Shown: in pieces, positions 1 to 10,690 of the stretch
Numbering within the stretch: position 1 is the stretch's first letter
How the letters are laid out: each line of letters begins with the position of its first letter
NCBI RefSeq assembly: GCF_000025965.1
Contig: NC_006824.1
Coordinates: forward strand, 124,001-188,000
Direction of reading: 5' to 3'
DNA length: 64,000 nt
DNA from: Aromatoleum aromaticum EbN1
Lineage (GTDB): Bacteria; Pseudomonadota; Gammaproteobacteria; Burkholderiales; Rhodocyclaceae
Program-made: the position numbers and the translations under genes
Notes under the pieces: model-generated
Seen by the model: only the letters and a program-made list of their open reading frames with translations
Databases searched by the model: none
Told to the model about the DNA's origin: nothing

Positions 1-797
1 AGGATAAGCCGGCGCACTTCGGGGAAGCGTTCGAGCACCGTCGTGAGGGTGGGCAGGAGCGTCGTCGTCTCGGCCGCGTTGCCCGCGAACACCTCGTGAT
101 AGATCGGAAGCCCGTCGGCCGTCTGCACCACGCCAAGCATGAACTGGCGGGCAATCAACCCCTCTTTGGCCATGCCGAAGGCGCGTACGTCGCCGGCCAC
201 GTTCGTGAGCCCCTCGGCGCGGATCGTGGTGAGATCGTAGAAGACGACCGACAGGTCCTGATCGACGAGCGGGCGCAGGAGTCCCGTCACCACCGCATCG
301 ACCGCCGCCTGGTGAGCCATCAGCGCATCCATGCTGCGCAGCAATTGCTGATGCGTGATCGCCTTGACGTCGACCTCGGGCAGCGCGACCGTCTCGAGCC
401 AGCGCAGCACGCCGAGCTTGGAGTCCGGATCGCACAGGCGGTTGAGCACCATCACGCGGATGAGCGCCTCGACATCGGTCGTGTGGCGCGTACGGCGAAA
501 CACCCGGCGCAGCGCCCCGAAGCCCAACTCCTTCCACAGCTCGGTGAGCGCCCAGACGTCGCCCAGTGCGCGGGCCGATTCGAACGCGACCGAAGGGGCC
601 GCCGGGCGCTCGCCCATGGGTTCTCGGCCGGAGATCCTGAGCAGCCCGCTGATCACCGAGTCGAGCTCGCCGCCGACCTGGTCGAGGCGACCGAGCGTTG
701 CCACGGTACGCTTCTTCACCCGCCCGGCATCGTCCCGATAGGACTGGACGAGTTGAAGGTAGCGGCGGCCGCCGGAGGTGGTGATCTTGACGAACAT
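1..797 (-). CDS. IS1634-family transposase, N-terminal part (partial)
   Basis: It encodes the first ~265 residues of a DDE transposase of the IS4/IS1634 type and continues past the left window edge. The ATG at 795-797 matches the start of the intact 566-residue copy. The N-terminus (MFVKITTSGGRRYLQ) and the segment around FYDLTTI, which holds the first catalytic Asp, are intact. Scattered differences from the second copy include substitutions around residues 40-60. Its role would be cut-and-paste or copy-out transposition of its own element; whether it is functional cannot be judged from half a gene. Confidence 0.88.
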   Translation of the reverse strand, partial: MFVKITTSGGRRYLQLVQSYRDDAGRVKKRTVATLGRLDQVGGELDSVISGLLRISGREPMGERPAAPSVAFESARALGDVWALTELWKELGFGALRRVFRRTRHTTDVEALIRVMVLNRLCDPDSKLGVLRWLETVALPEVDVKAITHQQLLRSMDALMAHQAAVDAVVTGLLRPLVDQDLSVVFYDLTTIRAEGLTNVAGDVRAFGMAKEGLIARQFMLGVVQTADGLPIYHEVFAGNAAETTTLLPTLTTVLERFPEVRRLI

Positions 798-957
798 GCC
801 GCCACTTTAGCAGCACGGCATACATCGTCAAGCAAGGTCGTAGCTGTTACAAACGTGCCACCACAAGAGTTTCGGAAAAATCGGGCTGAAACCCGCATGA
901 ATGCTGAGGCGGGTTTTCAAAAAACGGCGTTTTTCGGGCTGAACTGTCGAACTCCGG
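1..957 (-). mobile_element. IS1634-family insertion sequence, copy 1 (partial, cut by window edge)
   Basis: This is the 5' end of the same element that is complete at 3254-5178, in inverted orientation and almost identical to it. Its outer end at 942-957 carries the 16-bp terminal repeat whose complement reads CCGGAGTTCGACAGTT, the same repeat that bounds the complete copy. The rest lies beyond the left window edge, so its second end and target duplication cannot be checked. A few substitutions separate the two copies, so they are not a very recent duplication. Confidence 0.9.
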
Positions 958-1064
958 TGGACCGAGTCTTGCAGCCTAAGTGTTAGGGGTAGGTTCTCGC
1001 TTTCTGAACGGCAGCAGGTGACCGGCTTCCGTCATTCAAAATCCTTTCGCTTAATGACCGGTAC

Positions 1065-1099
1065 GGCCGATTATGTGGATGCCTCGATTATGTTGAGCT
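1065..1099 (+). repeat. RIT-1 left terminal inverted repeat
   Basis: Two tandem half-sites sharing GATTATGT occur here, at 1069 and 1086. A third copy, inverted, lies inside at 1163-1176 (GAGCTCGACATAAT). The right end has the mirror-image arrangement (10536-10549, 10602-10636). Such multiple half-sites are what a tyrosine recombinase complex would bind (inference). Confidence 0.85.
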
Positions 1100-1185: not shown

Positions 1186-1214
1186 CTCCTGAAGTGGAGT
1201 TTCCACTCCAGGAG
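1186..1214 (+). promoter_or_regulatory. Hairpin burying the ribosome-binding site of ritA (RIT-1)
   Basis: CTCCT (1186-1190) and TGGAGT (1195-1200) pair with ACTCCA (1205-1210) and AGGAG (1210-1214). The AGGAG is the Shine-Dalgarno sequence of the gene starting at 1221, so the folded leader would hide it. RIT-2 has an independent but analogous hairpin at 9171-9210. Confidence 0.6.
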
Positions 1215-1220
1215 ACGCTC

Positions 1221-2177
1221 ATGAACCGAACCTCGCCGTCCCGGAGCGCGCAGCGTGTGCGCTCTTCTGCAGAAATTCCCGCTCCCATCGCTGACGAACT
1301 GCGTCGGTACGACGACCACCTGCGTGACGTACGCGGCCTTTCGGCAGGCACGCGTCGCGACCGCTGCCGCATCGTCGAACAGCTATTGAGGAAGAAGTTT
1401 GCCGATGGCGTCGTCAACATGGCCACGCTACGTGCGGTCGATGTTCGCCGCTTCATCGCTCGGCAACTGGGGGACAGCCCCTCGCATTCCGCCGCAGCCC
1501 AATTGGCATCGGCCTTGCGAAGTTACCTCCGCTACCGAACCATCTGCGGCGACTCGGTTGCCGGACTGAACGCAGTCATTTCCTCTCCGGTGCAGTGGAA
1601 GCTTGCTTCGCTGCCGCGCGCCCTCCGGCCGGACCAAGTTCAACGGCTGCTGGGTGCATTCCCCTACGGGCGCTGGCCCCGACGAGGTTATGCCATTGTC
1701 CGCTGCGCACTCGACATGGGACTGCGCGCTGGCGAGATTGCGAACCTGCTGATCGAAGACATCGACTGGCGCGAAGGCACCGTCACGCTGAAGGGCACGA
1801 AGTCGCGACGGCAGGATGTCCTGCCGCTGCCGATGGCGACCGGACAAGCGTTAGCGGACTACCTGCAGCATGAGCGTCCAGCAATCTCAAGCCGGGCGAT
1901 CTTCCTTTGCCGCCGCGGTTCGCGTGACATCCCGATCACCACTGATGCGGTTCAGAACGTGATCCGCCGTGCCTGCCGACGGGTCGGCTTGCCCGATTCC
2001 GGTTCGCACCTACTCCGTCACACGCTGGCCTGCCGTCTGGTCGAGAACGGCAGCTCGCTCAAGGAGGTTGCCGATGTCCTGCGGCACCGTTCTCTGGAAA
2101 CCACCCGGATCTACGCCAAGCTCGACACCCCAAACCTCGCCGAGGTCGCGTTGCCCTGGCCGGGGAGCGAATCATGA
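1221..2177 (+). CDS. ritA: Tyrosine recombinase, first gene of RIT-1 (RitA type)
   Basis: A 318-residue tyrosine recombinase/integrase that cuts and joins DNA through a covalent 3'-phosphotyrosine. Visible catalytic residues are Arg in LRAGEIANLL (about residue 170), Lys in KGTKSRR, the HLLRHT box (HxxR), the second His in VLRHRS and the Tyr in RIYAKLD. The N-terminal ~100 residues match a SAM-like core-binding domain. I prefer the ATG at 1221 because AGGAG sits 6 bases upstream; an in-frame ATG at 1194 lacks a site. It overlaps the next gene by 4 bp (ATGA), so translation is probably coupled. RIT genes are thought to act as a set, but individual roles are not established. Confidence 0.9.
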   Translation: MNRTSPSRSAQRVRSSAEIPAPIADELRRYDDHLRDVRGLSAGTRRDRCRIVEQLLRKKFADGVVNMATLRAVDVRRFIARQLGDSPSHSAAAQLASALRSYLRYRTICGDSVAGLNAVISSPVQWKLASLPRALRPDQVQRLLGAFPYGRWPRRGYAIVRCALDMGLRAGEIANLLIEDIDWREGTVTLKGTKSRRQDVLPLPMATGQALADYLQHERPAISSRAIFLCRRGSRDIPITTDAVQNVIRRACRRVGLPDSGSHLLRHTLACRLVENGSSLKEVADVLRHRSLETTRIYAKLDTPNLAEVALPWPGSES

Positions 2178-3148
2178 GCAGGCGCCGATGCCTGCAGGCC
2201 AGAATCGACGACTATCTGGCCGAGCGCCGCCGCCAAGGTTTCCATCTGCGCTCCCGTTACGCCTTCCTCTCCAGCTTTGCTCGCTTCGTCGAGGCCAAGC
2301 GCCATCGCGGTCCGCTGACGGCGGAACTCATGATCGAATGGGTACGTGCCGGCAAGGATGGCCATGGCGATGAGGGTACTTGGGCGCGCAGTTGGGGACG
2401 GCTGCGGCACTTCAACTATTATCTGCAGCAGTTCGAGCCGGACACCGAGGTTCCCGAGGCGTCGCTCTTCGGCCCGGAACCTGGTCGCGTTGCGCCCCAT
2501 ATCTACCGTGACGACGAGATCGACGATTTGCTCGCGGCGGCGCGCACACTCGGCCCCTCTGGCAGCCTTCGGCCATTCACCTACGAAACCCTGTTCGGCC
2601 TGATGGCCTCGACCGGGTTGCGCGTCTCCGAAGCCATTCACCTGCGCGATGCGGATGTCGACCTCAAGCGCGGGATGCTGATGATCCGGCAGACCAAGTT
2701 CGCCAAGTCCCGGCAACTGCCGATCCATCCCAGCACGGTCAAGGCGCTGGCGCGCTACCGGAAACAACGCGAGCGGCATCTTCCAACGACAACCGGTATG
2801 CCGTTCCTGATCGGCAGTCGCGGCCGCCGACTGGGACTGCCACTTGGCGAGCGGCAGGCGCACCGCGTCTTTACCGGCCTGCGTGACGGCCTCGGCTGGG
2901 TCAATCGCGGCGGACACGAGGCTCCTCGCTTGCACGACCTGCGCCACACCTTCGCGGTGCGGCGGCTGGTGCCCTGGTATGCCGATGGTGCCGAGGTCGA
3001 CCAGAAGATGCTGGCGCTGTCGACCTACATGGGTCATGCCGAGATCTTCTACACATACTGGTACCTCACCGCCGTTCCCGAGTTGGTAGCGATCGCTGCC
3101 GCCCGGTTCGAGCAATTCGCCGATCTCGCGGGAGATGATGATGCGTAA
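2174..3148 (+). CDS. ritB: Tyrosine recombinase, second gene of RIT-1 (RitB type)
   Basis: A 324-residue integrase-family protein. Catalytic positions are visible: Arg in STGLRVSEAIHL, Lys in RQTKFAKSR, the box LHDLRHTFAVRRL, His in YMGHAEIFYT and Tyr in TYWYL. The long spacer between the HxxR box and the second His (Asp/Glu-rich AEVDQKMLAL) is typical of this subfamily and differs from the first gene. It starts within the stop of ritA (ATGA) and overlaps the third gene by 8-14 bp. The C-terminal ~70 residues are closely similar to the fragment at 10092-10295, showing that another element of the same lineage was once present. Confidence 0.9.
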   Translation: MSRRRCLQARIDDYLAERRRQGFHLRSRYAFLSSFARFVEAKRHRGPLTAELMIEWVRAGKDGHGDEGTWARSWGRLRHFNYYLQQFEPDTEVPEASLFGPEPGRVAPHIYRDDEIDDLLAAARTLGPSGSLRPFTYETLFGLMASTGLRVSEAIHLRDADVDLKRGMLMIRQTKFAKSRQLPIHPSTVKALARYRKQRERHLPTTTGMPFLIGSRGRRLGLPLGERQAHRVFTGLRDGLGWVNRGGHEAPRLHDLRHTFAVRRLVPWYADGAEVDQKMLALSTYMGHAEIFYTYWYLTAVPELVAIAAARFEQFADLAGDDDA

Positions 3149-3253
3149 GCAATCCAAATCACCGCCATCGTTTCCCGCGCTCGTGCAAGCCTTCTTCGTC
3201 GAGCACCTGACGCAACAACGCGCCCTCAGCCCGCAGACGGTTGCCGCCTACCG

Positions 3254-5178
3254 CCGGAGTTCGACAGTTCAGCCCGAAAAACGCCGTTTTTTGAAAACCC
3301 GCCTCAGCATTCATGCGGGTTTCAGCCCGATTTTTCCGAAACTCTTGTGGTGGCACGTTTGTAACAGCTACGACCTTGCTTGACGATGTATGCCGTGCTG
3401 CTAAAGTGGCGGCATGTTCGTCAAGATCACCACCTCCGGCGGCCGCCGCTACCTTCAGCTCGTCCAGTCCTATCGGGATGATGCCGGCCGGGTGAAGAAG
3501 CGTACCGTGGCAACGCTTGGTCGGCTCGACCAGGTCGGCGGTGAGCTGGATTCCGTGATCAACGGACTGCTCAGGGTCTCCGGCCGAGAACCCATGGGTG
3601 AGCGCCCTGCACCCCCTTCGGTCGCGTTCGAATCGGCCCGCGCACTGGGCGACGTCTGGGCGCTGACCGAGCTGTGGAAGGAGTTGGGCTTCGGGGCGCT
3701 GCGCCGGGTGTTTCGCCGTACGCGCCACACGACCGATGTCGAGGCGCTCATCCGCGTGATGGTGCTCAACCGCCTGTGCGATCCGGACTCCAAGCTCGGC
3801 GTGCTGCGCTGGCTCGAGACGGTCGCGCTGCCCGAGGTCGACGTCAAGGCGATCACGCATCAGCAATTGCTGCGCAGCATGGATGCGCTGATGGCTCACC
3901 AGGCGGCGGTCGATGCGGTGGTGACGGGACTCCTGCGCCCGCTCGTCGATCAGGACCTGTCGGTCGTCTTCTACGATCTCACCACGATCCGCGCCGAGGG
4001 GCTCACGAACGTGGCCGGCGACGTACGCGCCTTCGGCATGGCCAAAGAGGGGTTGATTGCCCGCCAGTTCATGCTTGGCGTGGTGCAGACGGCCGACGGG
4101 CTTCCGATCTATCACGAGGTGTTCGCGGGCAACGCGGCCGAGACGACGACGCTCCTGCCCACCCTCACGACGGTGCTCGAACGCTTCCCCGAAGTGCGCC
4201 GGCTTATCCTCGTGGCCGACCGCGGGTTGCTCAGCCTGGACAACCTCGAGGCGCTCGAGGCGGTGCGGCTCGCGAGCGGTGAGCCGCTCGAGTTCATCAT
4301 CGCGGTGCCGGGGCGGCGCTATCACGAGTTCGCCGAGCTCCTCGGCCCCTTCCAGCGCACGCACTGCACGCAGGCGAGGGCCGAGGTGACCGGCGAACTC
4401 GCTTGGCAGGGGCTGCGGCTCATCGTCGCCCACGCTCCGGCGACAGCCGCGGTGCAGAGCACACGGCGCAACGGCGAGATCGCCGCGCTCATCGCGCAGG
4501 GCGAAGCCTGGGCCAGCAAGCTCGTCGAGCAAGACGGCGGGGTCAAGCACCGCGGCCGCAAACTCTCGGACAGCGGGGCCAAGGCGCGCTTCTACCACGC
4601 GGTGTGCGAGGCGCATCTGTCCAAAATCATCCGCGTCGACCTCAAGGCCGAGCTCTTCCGCTACGAAATCGACGAGACGGCCCGGCGGCTTGCCGAACTC
4701 ATGGACGGCAAGCTCCTGCTCGTGACCAACACGAAGGATCTCGCCCCTGCCGACGTCGTCACGCGCTACAAGGCGCTCGCCGACATCGAGCGCGGCTTCA
4801 AGGTGCTCAAATCCGAGATCGAGATCGGGCCGGTCTATCACCGGTTGCCCGAACGCATCCGCGCACACGCCTCGATCTGCTTCATGGCGCTGATCCTGCA
4901 CCGCATCATGCGCGCGCGGCTGCGTGCGGCGCACACCGGGCTCACCCCCGAGCGGGCGCTCGAGCAGCTGCATCGCATCCAGCACCACCGCGTCCGGCTC
5001 GGCGCCGCCGAACCTGTGACGGGGGTGTCTTCCATCAACGCACACCAGAACGAGGTCCTCAGTGCCCTGCGGGTGAAAAAACCGGTCGCGCCTGAGCAGC
5101 TGACGCTGTTGTAGGGGCACGTTTGAAAGTCGCCTCTAGCGAAATCAGATAGTTACGAGATTAACTGTCGAACTCCGG
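3254..5178 (+). mobile_element. IS1634-family insertion sequence, copy 2 (complete, 1925 bp)
   Basis: Bounded by perfect 16-bp inverted repeats CCGGAGTTCGACAGTT (3254-3269 and complement 5163-5178). The 6-bp target CTACCG is duplicated at 3248-3253 and 5179-5184. The insertion lies in ritC of RIT-1, and removing it rejoins the Tyr-Arg codons of AAYRDAF. It is an inverted copy of the element at 1-957. Confidence 0.95.
3414..5114 (+). CDS. IS1634-family transposase
   Basis: Full-length 566-residue DDE transposase of the IS4 superfamily. The catalytic residues are visible as Asp in VFYDLTTI (about 185), Asp in LILVADRGLLS (about 268) and Glu in ADIERGFKVLKSE (about 465), the YREK-like signature region. 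It moves its own element and makes the 6-bp duplication seen at the ends. It starts with ATG 157 bp inside the left repeat. No frameshift or premature stop is visible, so the enzyme may be active. Confidence 0.92.
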   Translation: MFVKITTSGGRRYLQLVQSYRDDAGRVKKRTVATLGRLDQVGGELDSVINGLLRVSGREPMGERPAPPSVAFESARALGDVWALTELWKELGFGALRRVFRRTRHTTDVEALIRVMVLNRLCDPDSKLGVLRWLETVALPEVDVKAITHQQLLRSMDALMAHQAAVDAVVTGLLRPLVDQDLSVVFYDLTTIRAEGLTNVAGDVRAFGMAKEGLIARQFMLGVVQTADGLPIYHEVFAGNAAETTTLLPTLTTVLERFPEVRRLILVADRGLLSLDNLEALEAVRLASGEPLEFIIAVPGRRYHEFAELLGPFQRTHCTQARAEVTGELAWQGLRLIVAHAPATAAVQSTRRNGEIAALIAQGEAWASKLVEQDGGVKHRGRKLSDSGAKARFYHAVCEAHLSKIIRVDLKAELFRYEIDETARRLAELMDGKLLLVTNTKDLAPADVVTRYKALADIERGFKVLKSEIEIGPVYHRLPERIRAHASICFMALILHRIMRARLRAAHTGLTPERALEQLHRIQHHRVRLGAAEPVTGVSSINAHQNEVLSALRVKKPVAPEQLTLL

Positions 5179-5991
5179 CTACCGGGATGCCTTCATGCTC
5201 TTCTTGGGCTTCGCTGAGGCGCGCCTTGGTCGGTCGCCGGCGCTGATCACGCTGGCCGACATCACGCCAGAACTGATCACGGCCTTCCTCGATCATCTGG
5301 AACGCGAGCGGCACAACAGCGTGCGCAGCCGCAATGCCCGTCTCGCGGCGCTGCGTTCATTCCTGAAGTTCGCCGCCCACCGCGACGTGTCATCGCTGCA
5401 GGTGATCGAACATGCGCTTGGCGTTCCGGCAAAGCGCTTCGAGCGCCCGATGCTTGGCTATCTGTCCCGGGAGGAAATGCTTGCGGTGATCGGAACGCCG
5501 GATGGAACATGGTTCAGCCAACGGGATCATGTGTTGCTGTTGTTGCTCTACAACACCGGCGCTCGGGTTTCCGAGATTGCCGGGGTCAAGGTCGGCGAGG
5601 TGGTGCTCGCCGATGGAGCCGCCTGCGTTCATTTGCACGGCAAGGGACGCAAGCAGAGCAGTGTGCCGCTGTGGCACTCGACCGTCAGGGCGATCCGGGT
5701 CTGGCTCCGGCGAAATCCGCAGTTTGATTCGGACTCGCCATTGCTGCCCAATCGCGACGGCCAATCGATGTCGCGATGGAACGTGATGCAGCGACTGGAT
5801 CGCGCCGTCCAGGTTGCCGCGGAATCCTGCCCCGCCTTGGCGGCACGCCAGATCTCGCCGCACGTGATTCGCCACTATCTACCCTTCCTGACTATGTCGA
5901 GTGACCCAGAGGAGCTTTCACGATCGTTCGACAAATCGCGTGGTGCCTTGCGTGGTGCCTTACACATCACCCGACATAGTTTTTGTCTGCC

Positions 5992-6990
5992 CTACAGACT
6001 ATTCAAGAAGTTCAGGAGCTGGTCTCCCGGTTTATAGCGCCCGGGCGTGCCGTGGGGTGGAGCTGTCTTCGCAAGGGCCTGCTCCTTCATTTCGAGGTTC
6101 GCATCGAGATAGATCTGCGTGGTCTCCACCGATTCGTGTCCGAGCCACAAGGCAATCACCGAACGATCAACGCCCGCTTGAAGCAGGTCCATGGCCATCG
6201 TGTGCCTCAAGCGGTGAACAGTGATTCGCTTCTGCGTCAACGAAGGGCACGCCTCCGAGGCCGCCAAGCGATGCTTGTTCAGCAAGTACTGCACGCCGTG
6301 GACGCTGAGACGCTCGCCCTTGGCGCTGGGGAAGAGCACGTCGCCCTCTCCGCGTTGCGGCTCGCGCAGCCAGGCTTTCAACACGGTGAGCGTGGACTTG
6401 GCCAGCGGCGTACAGCGTTCCTTGCGACCCTTGCCCACCACGCGCACGTGAGCGCCGGCCCCGAGGATGAGGTCGTCGCGTTTGAGCCCGGTCATTTCAG
6501 ACAAACGTAGCCCTGTCTGCACCGCCACCAGCAAAAAGGCGTGATCGCGCCGGCCAGACCACGTGTGCTGATCCGGAGCCGCCAGCAAGGCATCGACTTC
6601 GGCACGTGCGAGAAACGAGACCAAGTTGCGCGTGAAGCGCTTGCTGGGGATGGCGAGCACCCGCTGGATCTGCGCGGAATGCTCGGGGGCCTCGAATGCC
6701 ACGTAACGAAAGAAGGAGTGGATCGCAGTGAGGCGCAGATTACGGCTACGGATGCTCACCCGTCTGCACTTCTCCAAGTCATCGAGAAACGCCACGATCA
6801 ATGGGGCATCGATCTCCTCCAGGCTCAGCCGTGACGGTGACTTATGCAGCCGTTGCTGAACGAATTTCAGAAATTGACGAAAGGTATCGCGATAGGAGCT
6901 GATCGTGTGCGGACTCGCTTGGCGTTGCTGCATCAGGCGCTGGGTAAAGAAACGCTCCAACAGCGCAGCAAAGCTGGCAGGGGTGATCAT
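5992..6990 (-). CDS. ritC: Tyrosine recombinase, third gene of RIT-2
   Basis: A 332-residue integrase-family protein starting at ATG 6988-6990, which overlaps the stop of the preceding gene (ATGA). Catalytic residues: Arg in QTGLRLSEMTG, Lys in VVGKGRKERCTPL, the box VHRLRHTMAMDLL, His in LWLGHESVETT and Tyr in QIYLDAN. It resembles the disrupted RIT-1 ritC in its whole layout, including the N-terminal FTQRLMQQRQASPHTISSYR segment. Intact; presumably acts with the two upstream recombinases on the element ends. Confidence 0.9.
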   Translation of the reverse strand: MITPASFAALLERFFTQRLMQQRQASPHTISSYRDTFRQFLKFVQQRLHKSPSRLSLEEIDAPLIVAFLDDLEKCRRVSIRSRNLRLTAIHSFFRYVAFEAPEHSAQIQRVLAIPSKRFTRNLVSFLARAEVDALLAAPDQHTWSGRRDHAFLLVAVQTGLRLSEMTGLKRDDLILGAGAHVRVVGKGRKERCTPLAKSTLTVLKAWLREPQRGEGDVLFPSAKGERLSVHGVQYLLNKHRLAASEACPSLTQKRITVHRLRHTMAMDLLQAGVDRSVIALWLGHESVETTQIYLDANLEMKEQALAKTAPPHGTPGRYKPGDQLLNFLNSL

Positions 6991-7931
6991 GGCCGATCCT
7001 CCCAGCGCCGCTCGAGCCGGCGCATCGCCTCGCGCATCAGTTCCGGAGAACTGCTCAAGTACCACTGCGTATCCTCGACGTGGACATGGCCGAGGTAGGC
7101 GGACAGGATCGGCAGCTGACGCTGCGGATCTTGATCACATTGGTACCAGCGCACGAGGGTATTTGTCGCAAATGCGTGCCTCATGTCGTGCAGGCGTGGT
7201 CCGTGACTGTCCGATACCCCGCGTAATCCAATCTGCCGCGACAAGGCGTAGAAAGTTCGGTGAATATCGCCGCCGTCCAAACGATTGCCCGAGCTGGATA
7301 CGAACAGGTAGGAGGACACCGGCCGTGCCTCCCAATGACGGTTGCGTCGCGCGATGTAGTCGGCAAGTACTTCGCAGGTGGAGCCATGCAAAGGTACGAG
7401 TCGAGACTTGCCGAACTTGGCACCGCGAATCGTCAACGCCGCCGCCTCGAGATCCACGTCCTGAAGCTGGAGGTTGCGGGCTTCGCCCAGGCGCAGGCCC
7501 GAGACGCTCAGTAACCCGAAAAGGGCATGGAAGGTCCACGGGCGCAGCGCACCGCGTTCATAACGGCACGGCATCGTGAGCGCCGCGCCCAGCAAGCGCC
7601 GAATCTCCTCATCCGAGTACAGGTACGGGCGCGCTCGCTTGGGTTGAAACGGCAACAAGCCCGGCGGCGGAATCTGCGTGCGTGGGTCCGTGGCACTGTG
7701 ATGGCGAGCAAATCCGCGTACGAAACTCAGTCGCTGCGCCCAGTGCGCCGGTTGGACGTTTGAAGGTTGTTGCGCCCAGGCGAGCGCCAACTCATGCGTT
7801 ACATAGTCGGCGCGGCGCCGCTCCATGAACGTGACGAAGTCATGTAACGCCTTGCCCGCCTCGCGCAGCTTGAACCCCAGAGCGCGCCGCAGACTCAGGT
7901 ACTCTTGAACGGCCTGTCGCAGCGTGTTCAT
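6987..7931 (-). CDS. ritB: Tyrosine recombinase, second gene of RIT-2
   Basis: A 314-residue recombinase starting at ATG 7929-7931, 4-bp overlap with the gene before and after. Visible are Arg in SGLRLGEARNLQL, Lys in RGAKFGKSRLVPL, the box LHDMRHAFATNTLV, His in YLGHVHVEDTQ and Tyr in QWYLSSS. The spacing between the RH box and the second His is long, as in RIT-1 ritB. The box reads Arg-His-Ala here, not Arg-His-Thr. No disruption. Confidence 0.9.
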   Translation of the reverse strand: MNTLRQAVQEYLSLRRALGFKLREAGKALHDFVTFMERRRADYVTHELALAWAQQPSNVQPAHWAQRLSFVRGFARHHSATDPRTQIPPPGLLPFQPKRARPYLYSDEEIRRLLGAALTMPCRYERGALRPWTFHALFGLLSVSGLRLGEARNLQLQDVDLEAAALTIRGAKFGKSRLVPLHGSTCEVLADYIARRNRHWEARPVSSYLFVSSSGNRLDGGDIHRTFYALSRQIGLRGVSDSHGPRLHDMRHAFATNTLVRWYQCDQDPQRQLPILSAYLGHVHVEDTQWYLSSSPELMREAMRRLERRWEDRP

Positions 7932-9166
7932 CGCGCACCTCCGGGCCACGGCAGAGCCAGGGTGCGCAATGCCTCGAGGTCGACCTTGGTGTAGATCTTC
8001 GTGGTCTGTGGATGGCGGTGACCCAGCAGCTCGCCGATCTCGCCCAGCGAGGCGCCCTGGCGCAACATCTCGGTGGCCAATCCGTGGCGAAACTGATGCG
8101 CCCCCCTCGTAGGGGCGTGGATGCCGGCGCGCTCGATCGCGTGCCGGACCAGGGAGCACACACCGCACGCTCCCTGGAAACCGCGGTTCGGCGCTCTGGT
8201 ACGCAAGAATACGCGACGGCTGGCGCTACGCGGGCGCCCCGAGTGCAGGTAGGCGACGATCGCTTCGCCGACCTCGACCGGCAAGGGAAACTCGTTTCGC
8301 TGGCCACCTTTGCCGCGTACATGCAATTGTCCTGCGTTCCAGTCGATGTCATCGAGTTCGAGAAATGCCACTTCGCCCGAACGCAAGCCCAGTCGTGCGA
8401 GCAGCAGCAAGATGGCATAGTCACGGCGCCCTGTCGGCTGATCCCGATCGATGCTGCCCAGCAACTGACGGACTTCTTCGGCTGCGATCGCCCGCGGGAT
8501 CGACGTCATCGACCAGTTCGCCACGACCGGTACGGCGGCGGCCAGATCCCGGGTGACGTCGCCACGATAACGCGCATAGCGCAGGAAGGAGCGCAGCGCG
8601 GTGGTCATGAGCTTCGCGCGCTTCAGATGCAGGCGCGGAACTTGGCCCTGCACAAATCTCACGACATCGCTGGCATTCAGGCGCGAGAGCGTGGCGCCTT
8701 CCTCGCCAAATTGTTGCTTGAGAAACTCCCGGACGAACGGCACGTAGTTGATGATCGTTGCTGTGGCTAAACCACGTGCTTCGCACAAATACTGCGCATA
8801 GTCTTGGACACAGTGCTCAACTGCGGTCAGTCGGGTGGGCTCGACCTTCTCCTGCGGAATCACGCCCTCACGGCGCAGAAAGGTAATGAGGTGTTGAAGC
8901 ACCGCCGTATCACCGCGACCAGGTCGCAGATACCGGGCGCGATCACGTAAATACTCGACGGCGTGCGCACTGCAGATGCTGTCCACCTGGATTCCGCTTT
9001 GTCCAAGCCATCGACTAAAACCTGCAGCGATCCGAACGTGCCGCCTCAGCGAAAAAACGCTGTACCCCTGTTCGCCCACGAAGTTCGCAAATGACGCAAG
9101 GTGTGCCGCCAGCGGCCCTTCAGGCGGCCGCGATAGAACGACTTGCTCATGGATGAAGTAGGTCAT
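7928..9166 (-). CDS. ritA: Tyrosine recombinase, first gene of RIT-2
   Basis: A 412-residue recombinase, about 95 residues longer than RIT-1 ritA through an N-terminal extension. Catalytic residues: Arg in LARLGLRSGEVAFL, Lys in VRGKGGQRNEFPL, HQFRHGLATEML, His in LLGHRHPQTT and Tyr in KIYTKVD. The ATG at 9164-9166 has GAGGAG 7 bases upstream, but that site is in the 3' arm of a hairpin (9171-9210). First gene of the trio and therefore the natural point of translational control. Confidence 0.9.
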   Translation of the reverse strand: MTYFIHEQVVLSRPPEGPLAAHLASFANFVGEQGYSVFSLRRHVRIAAGFSRWLGQSGIQVDSICSAHAVEYLRDRARYLRPGRGDTAVLQHLITFLRREGVIPQEKVEPTRLTAVEHCVQDYAQYLCEARGLATATIINYVPFVREFLKQQFGEEGATLSRLNASDVVRFVQGQVPRLHLKRAKLMTTALRSFLRYARYRGDVTRDLAAAVPVVANWSMTSIPRAIAAEEVRQLLGSIDRDQPTGRRDYAILLLLARLGLRSGEVAFLELDDIDWNAGQLHVRGKGGQRNEFPLPVEVGEAIVAYLHSGRPRSASRRVFLRTRAPNRGFQGACGVCSLVRHAIERAGIHAPTRGAHQFRHGLATEMLRQGASLGEIGELLGHRHPQTTKIYTKVDLEALRTLALPWPGGAR

Positions 9167-9170
9167 GATC

Positions 9171-9210
9171 GACTCCTCTCCCCGAATTACGGGGGGTGCT
9201 GAGAGGAGTC
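9171..9210 (-). promoter_or_regulatory. Hairpin burying the ribosome-binding site of RIT-2 ritA
   Basis: GACTCCTCTC (9171-9180) and GAGAGGAGTC (9201-9210) are perfect complements. Inside them, 9180-9194 holds a second small palindrome around CCCCGAATTACGGGG. On the minus-strand transcript the 3' arm contains the GAGGAG that serves the start at 9166. Confidence 0.6.
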
Positions 9211-9295
9211 CAGATTATCTTTCTCTAAGCTGCTGCAAGTACTTGAAACTTCGGGATCTAGCGGCACAACGAGACATAGTCAGGAAGGGTAGATA

Positions 9296-10099
9296 GTGGC
9301 GAATCACGTGCGGCGAGACGTGGCGCTTCGCCAGATCCGGATAGGGCTGGGTTGCGGTATGTACAGCCAACGCCAGCCGGAGGGCGACGTTGGTGCGCGT
9401 CATCGCATGCCAGTTGCGGTTGGGCAACAACGGTGATTCTGGCTCGAGCTGAGGGTTCTGCTTCAGCCAAGCTCGGACGGCCTTGACTGTCGAGCGCCAC
9501 AGCGGAACGCTGCGCTGCTTGCGGCCCTTGCCATGCAGATGAACGCAAGCGGCACGCTCTTCCAGTACCACGTCGCCGACCTTGACCCCGGTGATTTCGG
9601 ACACACGCGCGCCGGTGTTGTAGAGCATCAGGAAGAGCACGTGGTCACGCTGACCGATCCAGGTTTTATCGGGCGCGTCGATCACGGCCAGCATCTCCTC
9701 GCGGGACAGATAGCCGAACATCGGGCGCTCGAAACGCTTCGCGGGTATGCCGAGTCCGCGTTCGACCACCTGCAGCGACGACACATCCCGGCGGCCGGCG
9801 AACTTGAGGAATGACCGCAACGCAGCCAGGCGCGCGTTACGACTGCGCACGCAGTTGTGACGCTGCTGTTCAAGATGATTGAGGAATGCCGTGATCAGCT
9901 CCGGTGTCATGTCTGCGAGCGCGATCGCGGCCGACGATTTGCCCAGCCGGGACTGAGCGAACTCGAGGAACAGCACAAAGGCGTCGCGGTACGCGGCGAT
10001 GGTCTGCGGGCTGAGTGCGCGCTGTTGGGTCAGGTACTCGGCGAAGTAGGCCTGCACGAGCGTGGCGAATGACGGCGGCGTCTTGGCGGGCTTACTCAT
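9296..10099 (-). pseudogene. RIT-3 fragment: 5' part of a RitC-type recombinase gene
   Basis: It encodes 268 residues from MSKPAKTPPSFATLV to the ...SPHVIRH box and stops there, joined to the right end of RIT-2. It is closely similar to RIT-1 ritC over the whole length but not identical, so it comes from a third, related element. The catalytic second His and Tyr are lost. The ATG at 10097-10099 overlaps the stop of the ritB fragment, preserving RIT gene order. Confidence 0.85.
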
Positions 10100-10295
10100 C
10101 GTCGCCTCCCGCCAAATCCACGAAGCGCTCGAACTTGCCACCGGCCAGGGCCATCAGTTCAGGGACCGACGAGAGATACCAGTAGGTGTGGGAGATCTTG
10201 GTATGCCCCAGGTAGGTCGACAGGGCCAGCATCATCTGGTCGATGTCGGTGCCTTCACGATGCCAACGCACCAAGCGTCTGACGGCAAAGGTATG
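10092..10295 (-). pseudogene. RIT-3 fragment: 3' part of a RitB-type recombinase gene
   Basis: It encodes the last 67 residues of a RitB-type recombinase, beginning exactly at the His-Thr of the conserved LRHTFAVRRL box (CATACC, 10290-10295) and ending with GGDDE. It contains the second catalytic His (YLGHTKI) and Tyr (TYWYLSS). Everything upstream of the RHT box is missing and is replaced by a 22-bp imperfect palindrome. Confidence 0.85.
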
Positions 10296-10298
10296 CCT

Positions 10299-10320
10299 CC
10301 TATGTCGCTGAAGAGATAGG
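10299..10320. repeat. 22-bp imperfect palindrome at the RIT-3/RIT-1 junction
   Basis: CCTATGTCGCTG...GATAGG has 5-6 bp complementary arms (CCTAT/ATAGG). It shares TATCT..TTC and the GACATAG/CTATGTC motif with the RIT-2 ends. It sits between the broken ritB fragment and the resumption of RIT-1 ritC at 10324. I read it as a residual element end or recombination core. Confidence 0.45.
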
Positions 10321-10601
10321 CGACACACGACGGCAATGCACCTGCTGCAGGCCGGCGTCGACATCACCGTCATTGCGCTTTGGCTCGGCCATGAGAGTCC
10401 GGCAACTACGCACCAATACGTCGAGGCCGATCTGGCGATGAAGGAGCGGGCGCTGGCCCGGCTTCACGAGCCAGAGGCCAAGCTCCGGCGCTATCGGGCG
10501 CCCGACTCGCTGATCGACTTCCTGCGGACGCTCTGATTATGTAGAGCTCGAAATCGGCGCCTGCCGCTCCAGACGGGCGGTTGGCGCACGACGCCGGTCC
10601 T

Positions 10602-10636
10602 GGCTCCACATAATCGAGGCATCCACATAATCGGCC
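10602..10636 (-). repeat. RIT-1 right terminal inverted repeat
   Basis: Complement of the repeat at 1065-1099, starting right after the end of ritC. An inner half-site ATTATGTAGAGCTC lies at 10536-10549, overlapping the ritC stop. Directly outside, 10637-10657 is a further palindromic copy of the motif (TTATGTTGAGCTCCACATAA). Confidence 0.85.
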
Positions 10637-10690
10637 TTTATGTTGAGCTCCACATAAGGCCGAGTTGCTGTCCGTGGCAAAATTGCTGGG

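Follow-up and report, generated by a model that had tools for sequence, protein, structure and literature searches.

RIT elements, named for recombinase in trio, consist of three consecutive tyrosine-recombinase genes with short overlaps, measure about 3.5 kb, and are bounded by inverted repeats, with a palindrome near their ends (Van Houdt 2012, PMC3414803; PMC2864759). The encoded proteins fall into the established recombinase subgroups RitA, RitB and RitC (PMC8138268). Several identical copies are found per genome, and truncated RIT genes occur in complex clusters, for example on pHG1 (PMC3414803; PMC2864759). The mobility of the elements remained to be demonstrated (PMC3414803), and their target specificity is listed as not tested (PMC10214605). 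Insertion points have been reported in radC, in IS66 tnpA and in a Tn6049-type transposase gene, with no target rule given (PMC3414803; PMC2864759).

The window analysed here, the whole stretch of 64,000 nucleotides from Aromatoleum aromaticum EbN1, contains an element, RIT-2, with an organization analogous to that of the described RITs. RIT-2 is 3420 bp long, ends in perfect 23-bp repeats (0 expected in shuffles), and comprises three PF00589 genes with 4-bp overlaps at 7928-7931 and 6987-6990, which are labelled ritA, ritB and ritC by gene order and not by a subgroup model. In two further copies, L007 and L008, a palindrome, termed module X, lies beside the ritC end, and the presence of three identical copies at different places in one genome suggests mobility. 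The differences from the reported RITs lie in the target, which is the catalytic box of a tyrosine recombinase, and in the palindrome, which stands as a module of its own between inverted cores. Very probably, RIT-2 and its relatives are RIT transposons that integrate in the DNA for a catalytic box of other tyrosine recombinases, a conclusion that includes the circle mechanism and the window history proposed below.

Other mobile elements share part of this design. Tn554-type transposons have a site-specific target inside radC, and inteins and homing elements sit in those active-site codons that are most conserved in a gene family, with inteins splicing out and sparing the protein. The likeness of RIT-2 to inteins and homing elements is one of strategy only, in the occupancy of active-site codons; RIT-2 truncates the target protein instead. 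Tn554-type elements resemble RIT-2 in encoding several proteins that include tyrosine recombinases and in their 6-bp footprint (PMC10214605), but differ in their target and in their gene set of TnpA, TnpB and TnpC, the last of which is not a tyrosine recombinase, whereas all three RIT-2 proteins are PF00589 recombinases. Strand-biased circularizing integrative elements (SEs) and GInts carry several tyrosine recombinases per element, and SEs also have inverted-repeat ends (PMC10214605, PMC5385486). Both have four conserved genes (IntA, Tfp, IntB and Srap, or GinA-D) and other targets, and no X module is described for them in the text consulted; between the RIT-2 ends, only ritA, ritB and ritC were recognised. 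One copy of the 6-bp SE core is described as remaining native while the other comes from the donor (PMC10214605). An Ensifer target (L086) is consistent with this rule, in that comparison with the uninterrupted gene identifies the core CGC beside the terminal inverted repeat (TIR) as native and the core CGG beside X as foreign; the core pattern of the window is ambiguous.

The features of the window that bear on the insertion are as follows.

1065-1098, plus strand: left terminal repeat of RIT-1, the broken host element, which is of another RIT type than RIT-2; 97% inverted repeat with 10603-10636
1194-2177, plus strand: RIT-1 ritA, open reading frame of 327 aa with the box ...SHLLRHT
2174-3148, plus strand: RIT-1 ritB, open reading frame of 324 aa with the box ...LHDLRHTFAV
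3138-5875, plus strand: N-half of RIT-1 ritC, split by an IS (about 3253-5178) and ending ...SPHVIRH, codons CGC CAC; PF00589 Phage_integrase match at 5546-5875 (3.3e-14)
5876-9295, minus strand: RIT-2 element, 3420 bp, one of three identical genomic copies
5876-5898, plus strand: RIT-2 terminal inverted repeat, ritC side (TATCTACCCTTCCTGACTATGTC)
5992-6990, minus strand: RIT-2 ritC (PF00589, 1.1e-32)
6987-7931, minus strand: RIT-2 ritB (PF00589, 1.2e-21)
7928-9166, minus strand: RIT-2 ritA (PF00589, 1.2e-26)
9273-9295, minus strand: RIT-2 terminal inverted repeat, ritA side
9296-10099, minus strand: N-half of RIT-3 ritC, ending in Arg-His (...SPHVIRH) at 9296; putative captured cargo that tiles onto a Paraburkholderia sprentiae RIT
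10092-10298, minus strand: C-half of RIT-3 ritB, starting at the core AGG CAT (Arg-His); putative captured cargo
10299-10320, no strand: module X palindrome CCTATGTCGCTGAAGAGATAGG, here between two recombinase C-halves
10321-10536, plus strand: C-half of RIT-1 ritC, starting CGA CAC ACG (R-H-T-T-A-M-H-L), with the His codon at 10324
10603-10636, minus strand: right terminal repeat of RIT-1, followed by its own X-like palindrome

The IS that interrupts RIT-1 ritC bears a transposase and has a second, partial and inverted copy at the left edge of the window (1-960 versus 3251-4210; 98% over 960 nt).

The original prediction, made from the letters of the window, described recombinase genes broken at the same codons, and its reading of the breakpoints is exact. 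RIT-1 ritC is interrupted after Arg-His at 5875 and resumes with His-Thr at 10324, confirmed to the base (R-H-T codons 10321-10329); this C-half shares 81% DNA identity with P. sprentiae ritC. The inverted RIT-3 ritC ends after Arg-His at 9296 on the minus strand, and the RIT-3 ritB fragment starts at its own His codon (10295-10293), preceded by AGG (10298-10296). Two of the breaks adjoin the perfect 23-bp RIT-2 repeats, as had been stated; the palindrome that had been placed at another break, the 22-bp sequence at 10299-10320, is abutted by both the third and the fourth. The first 21 nt of this palindrome are identical to the X adjoining RIT-2 in L007 and L008, and the window palindrome is a regular component of these elements, not a chance neighbour.

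The EbN1 genome, in which 42 PF00589 matches exceed the cut-off, contains six instances of the terminal repeat, corresponding to three identical 3,420-bp elements, and all three are located directly after the Arg-His codons of a tyrosine-recombinase gene. The copy L007 (C1:281359-284778) is a clean insertion in RIT-5 ritC, reading ...SPHVLRH, element, TTAMHLLQAGVPFNVISLWLGH. The copy L008 (C3:105734-109153), 24 kb from the window copy on the same replicon, has RIT-4 ritB (...RLHDLRH) at its left flank and a C-half of RIT-4 ritC at its right flank. The window copy (5876-9295) targets RIT-1/RIT-3 ritC. In L007 and L008, about 30 bp separate the ritC-side repeat from the C-half of the target, and consist of an inverted core CGCCAC, X (CCTATGTCGCTGAAGAGATAG) and a second core AGGCAC or AGGCAT, after which the C-half begins.

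A wider search for the terminal repeat with tabulation of its flanks, as the prediction had proposed, was run on about 85,000 species, each represented by a single genome, with a degenerate pattern of the repeat alone and no flank in the query. It yielded at least 118 public loci and, with plasmid loci and the host's own copies, about 150 informative flanks; 38 of the at least 118 loci served as a check set and agree with the other 80 on the flank pattern. Among the matches listed, own and plasmid loci included, the unique outward flanks comprise 63 open frames ending ...HxLRH, 9 ending ...VQLLLGHTKLD or close variants (the second catalytic box, LGHxLD), 77 in which X, a palindrome of 22-24 bp, adjoins the repeat, and 8 that run into the end of another mobile element instead of X. 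Two flanks are unexplained (L025 and the right flank of L069), one belongs to a chance match without rit genes, and 10 are at contig ends. X was scored by a fixed-centre palindrome test with manual correction of six cases. Before this correction, 74 of the 81 flanks provisionally scored as X among the matches listed had Arg-His, or Leu/Val-Glu in the clade that uses the second box, at a fixed offset after the palindrome, and continued as a recombinase C-half (with sequences such as TTAMHLLQAG, SFATHLLE and STVRYLGIEV); of the seven that did not, one is L101 and the other six were N-halves of recombinases wrongly scored as X.

An open frame of at least 30 aa ending in Arg-His adjoins 55 of 153 TIR flanks, a proportion for which about half is the ceiling because a simple insertion has one N side only, as against 0.29% when 60,000 positions were drawn at random from these loci, which are rich in recombinases. 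Chance is excluded as the cause of the Arg-His breakpoints. When N-halves were scanned singly, 42 of 50 matched PF00589. Nearly all independent insertions among the matches listed lie in a recombinase catalytic box, mostly the Arg-His box with an NGNCAC core, which supports the proposal that RIT-2-type elements target this DNA. The further claim that RIT elements insert into each other holds: about half of the broken targets are ritC genes of other RITs, the rest being other integrases. Among the matches listed, the N-halves that end at the first box and measure at least 30 aa were nearest to RitC in 32 cases, to RitB in 9 and to RitA in 2, with 12 lacking a RIT match; the C-halves of the targets are most often RitC-like too.

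Joined across the element, the flanks give continuous recombinase sequences, such as ...KRVSMHTLRH^SFASHLLEQKVDIRAIQVLLGH, ...FHDLRH^IWASWHVQSG and ...VQLLLGHSKLD^STVRYLGIEV. Near-identical uninterrupted genes (94-98%) are present on Sinorhizobium meliloti plasmids for two targets, namely the NGR234 target, with a homologue on pEm1132b at 94%, and the Ensifer target of L086. An order-wide pattern search of 399 genomes gave only one further genome, with divergent ends. Plasmid relatives of about 71-76% DNA identity occur on pHG1 and pNGR234a and in Paraburkholderia, Cupriavidus, Marinobacter and Microvirga. They end in a TATNTN...TATRTC repeat, and those with both ends seen have an LRH-type box directly before the repeat on one side and X or the end of another element on the opposite side.

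At several loci, a different mobile element seems to start a few bases from the core, replacing X; its ends are GCGG(G/T)TTAGT in L033, L048, L111, L113 and L116, and GCTAAAAA in L014, L046 and L128. In L113 and L033 the adjoining sequence resembles the beginning of a tyrosine integrase gene. Other elements may use the X palindrome itself as a target.

The RitB tree separates the elements by target. An LGHxLD clade (7 rows, support 100/99) is sister to an HxLRH clade (38 rows, 95/80); members of the latter insert immediately after the Arg-His codons and those of the former in the LLGHxxLD/E box. One integrase gene, at L060:2053-5553, is broken twice, in its Arg-His box by an element of the HxLRH clade and in its LGHAKLD box by one of the LGHxLD clade. 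Both clades nest in a wider RIT set on the RitB tree, and the targets have been worked out for the two clades alone. RIT-1 (1065-1098 and 10603-10661 in the window) and the P. sprentiae RIT (L150:905-943 and 4062-4130) have the same layout of a long repeat plus palindrome. Neither showed a recognisable recombinase box when inspected for a target of this type; the core of both is GGCC and their palindrome is a different one, and for this reason the recombinase-box rule is not extended to every RIT. The targets of other RIT clades are probably different.

The order of an occupied target is N-half, core (NGNCAC), TIR, ritABC, TIR', inverted core, the 22-24 bp palindrome X, core and C-half. In all 24 paired elements X lies towards the C-terminal part of the target, and the orientation of the element varies, the N-half joining the ritA side in 13 of them and the ritC side in 11. 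This arrangement is consistent with a mobile form that would be a circle, in which two equivalent TIR-core-X attachment sites, inverted relative to each other, divide the gene segment from X. Recombination with the target in the recombinase gene could take place at either of them, and the asymmetric core would turn X towards the C-half. With either site usable, both orientations would arise equally and X would be set towards the C-half, as is seen. The core at the X-C1 join of the window reads GCGACA and that beside X in other copies TCGCCA, which counts against a settled strand-exchange rule there. Because the insertion removes its C-terminal catalytic part, the target protein is expected to be inactive.

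Two 408-bp derivatives without rit genes, at L026:4103-4510 and L121:3840-4247, are 77% identical, have the same ends and lie in recombinase boxes. The one compared with full elements is homologous to both their ends. The pair look like non-autonomous miniature RITs, and since they occupy the same kind of target without genes, the ends plus the core appear to be sufficient in cis.

The RIT-2 copy of the window departs from the usual order in having an N-half on both sides, with X 1 kb away between two C-halves. Two N-halves also flank the element in L087 and L091, and X is on both sides in L028 and L101, the counterpart of the double N-half. The alternative named in the original prediction, recombination between nested copies, holds in part: it is needed as an extra step because the window RIT-2 carries two N-halves, but it does not explain the targeting. 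In the history proposed here, one RIT (RIT-3/RIT-4) would have taken RIT-2 insertions in ritB and in ritC, and recombination between both direct RIT-2 copies would have freed a circle containing RIT-2, X and the segment from the ritB C-half to the ritC N-half. The deletion at L008, which is without just what the window carries, would be the remainder after this release. Using the TIR-core-X site on its ritC side, the circle would then have entered RIT-1 at the ritC box, giving the nested structure. The pieces at L008 and in the window tile one P. sprentiae RIT (1954-2786, 2785-3771 and 3782-4089) at 71-77% identity, with a 2-bp overlap at one join and a 10-bp gap at the other; as an alignment, the tiling speaks for complementary pieces and not for origin from one molecule. 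A possible but less probable course, for the window only, is site-specific inversion between the inverted TIR-core-X sites of two integrated copies, with no circle capture. Inversion is in line with the existence of N-main-N, X-main-X and C-X-C arrangements (window, L087, L028 and L101), but L008, 24 kb away on the same replicon, corresponds to the deletion expected from circle release.

With regard to target specificity itself, it is unlikely that the elements read a short DNA motif (about CAYNNNNTNMGNCAY...GC) that is merely common in recombinase genes, the gene itself being irrelevant. A recombinase does read DNA and not protein, and conservation within the target falls on the codons for His, Arg, His and, further downstream, Ala, whose wobble positions are free. 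The host genome, however, has 66 copies of the minimal motif, most of them outside recombinase genes as compared with the PF00589 coordinates, and no insertion in a recognised non-recombinase gene was found among the insertions recovered. Either recognition must draw on a longer part of the arms than the minimal motif covers, or a further constraint or factor must act; a strictly extended attB pattern was too narrow and gave zero matches in the host genome. Broad insertion followed by survival only in dispensable recombinase genes is very improbable: the integrases of other mobile elements are, as is generally known, dispensable to the cell, but so are most genes and intergenic DNA, none of which was found occupied among the insertions recovered, and the position within the gene is fixed to the base. 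Hardly credible is the spread of one ancestral nested structure by homologous recombination between RITs with no target specificity, since the two N-halves around the element in the window, L087 and L091, although they need recombination and leave it possible as a local step in the window, are outweighed by very different targets (ritC, ritB, SFATHLLE-type, HIWASW-type and LLGHTKLE-STVRY-type) in both orientations and several phyla, which refute it as a general cause.

RIT elements, their ends and the flanking palindrome are already known (PMC3414803). In the open literature, which here does not include the main RIT paper (Ricker 2013), no description of recombinase catalytic boxes as RIT targets was found, and the novelty is provisional for that reason. 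A literature search for mobile elements that target integrase genes brought up no relevant report. Beyond the target itself, we favour, with some reserve, a broader interpretation in which these elements form a transposon lineage specialised on the recombinase genes of other elements, with each clade using a different catalytic box of its own enzyme superfamily, a two-module circle of gene module plus palindrome with two equivalent inverted sites, and the disarming of competitors as an effect.

Knowledge of RIT elements goes back well over ten years, but both where they insert and how they move are listed as untested in the open literature. A fixed target gives them an address that simplifies the design of integration assays. 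It also accounts for the groups of truncated RIT genes found on pHG1 and similar plasmids. With active-site codons of their own superfamily as target, the elements have sites in nearly every genome that harbours other mobile DNA, and the burden on the host is probably small. Insertion would disable competitors, so that mobile elements would inactivate one another at a predictable place, and sister clades on two boxes would allow the study of target change in a tyrosine recombinase.
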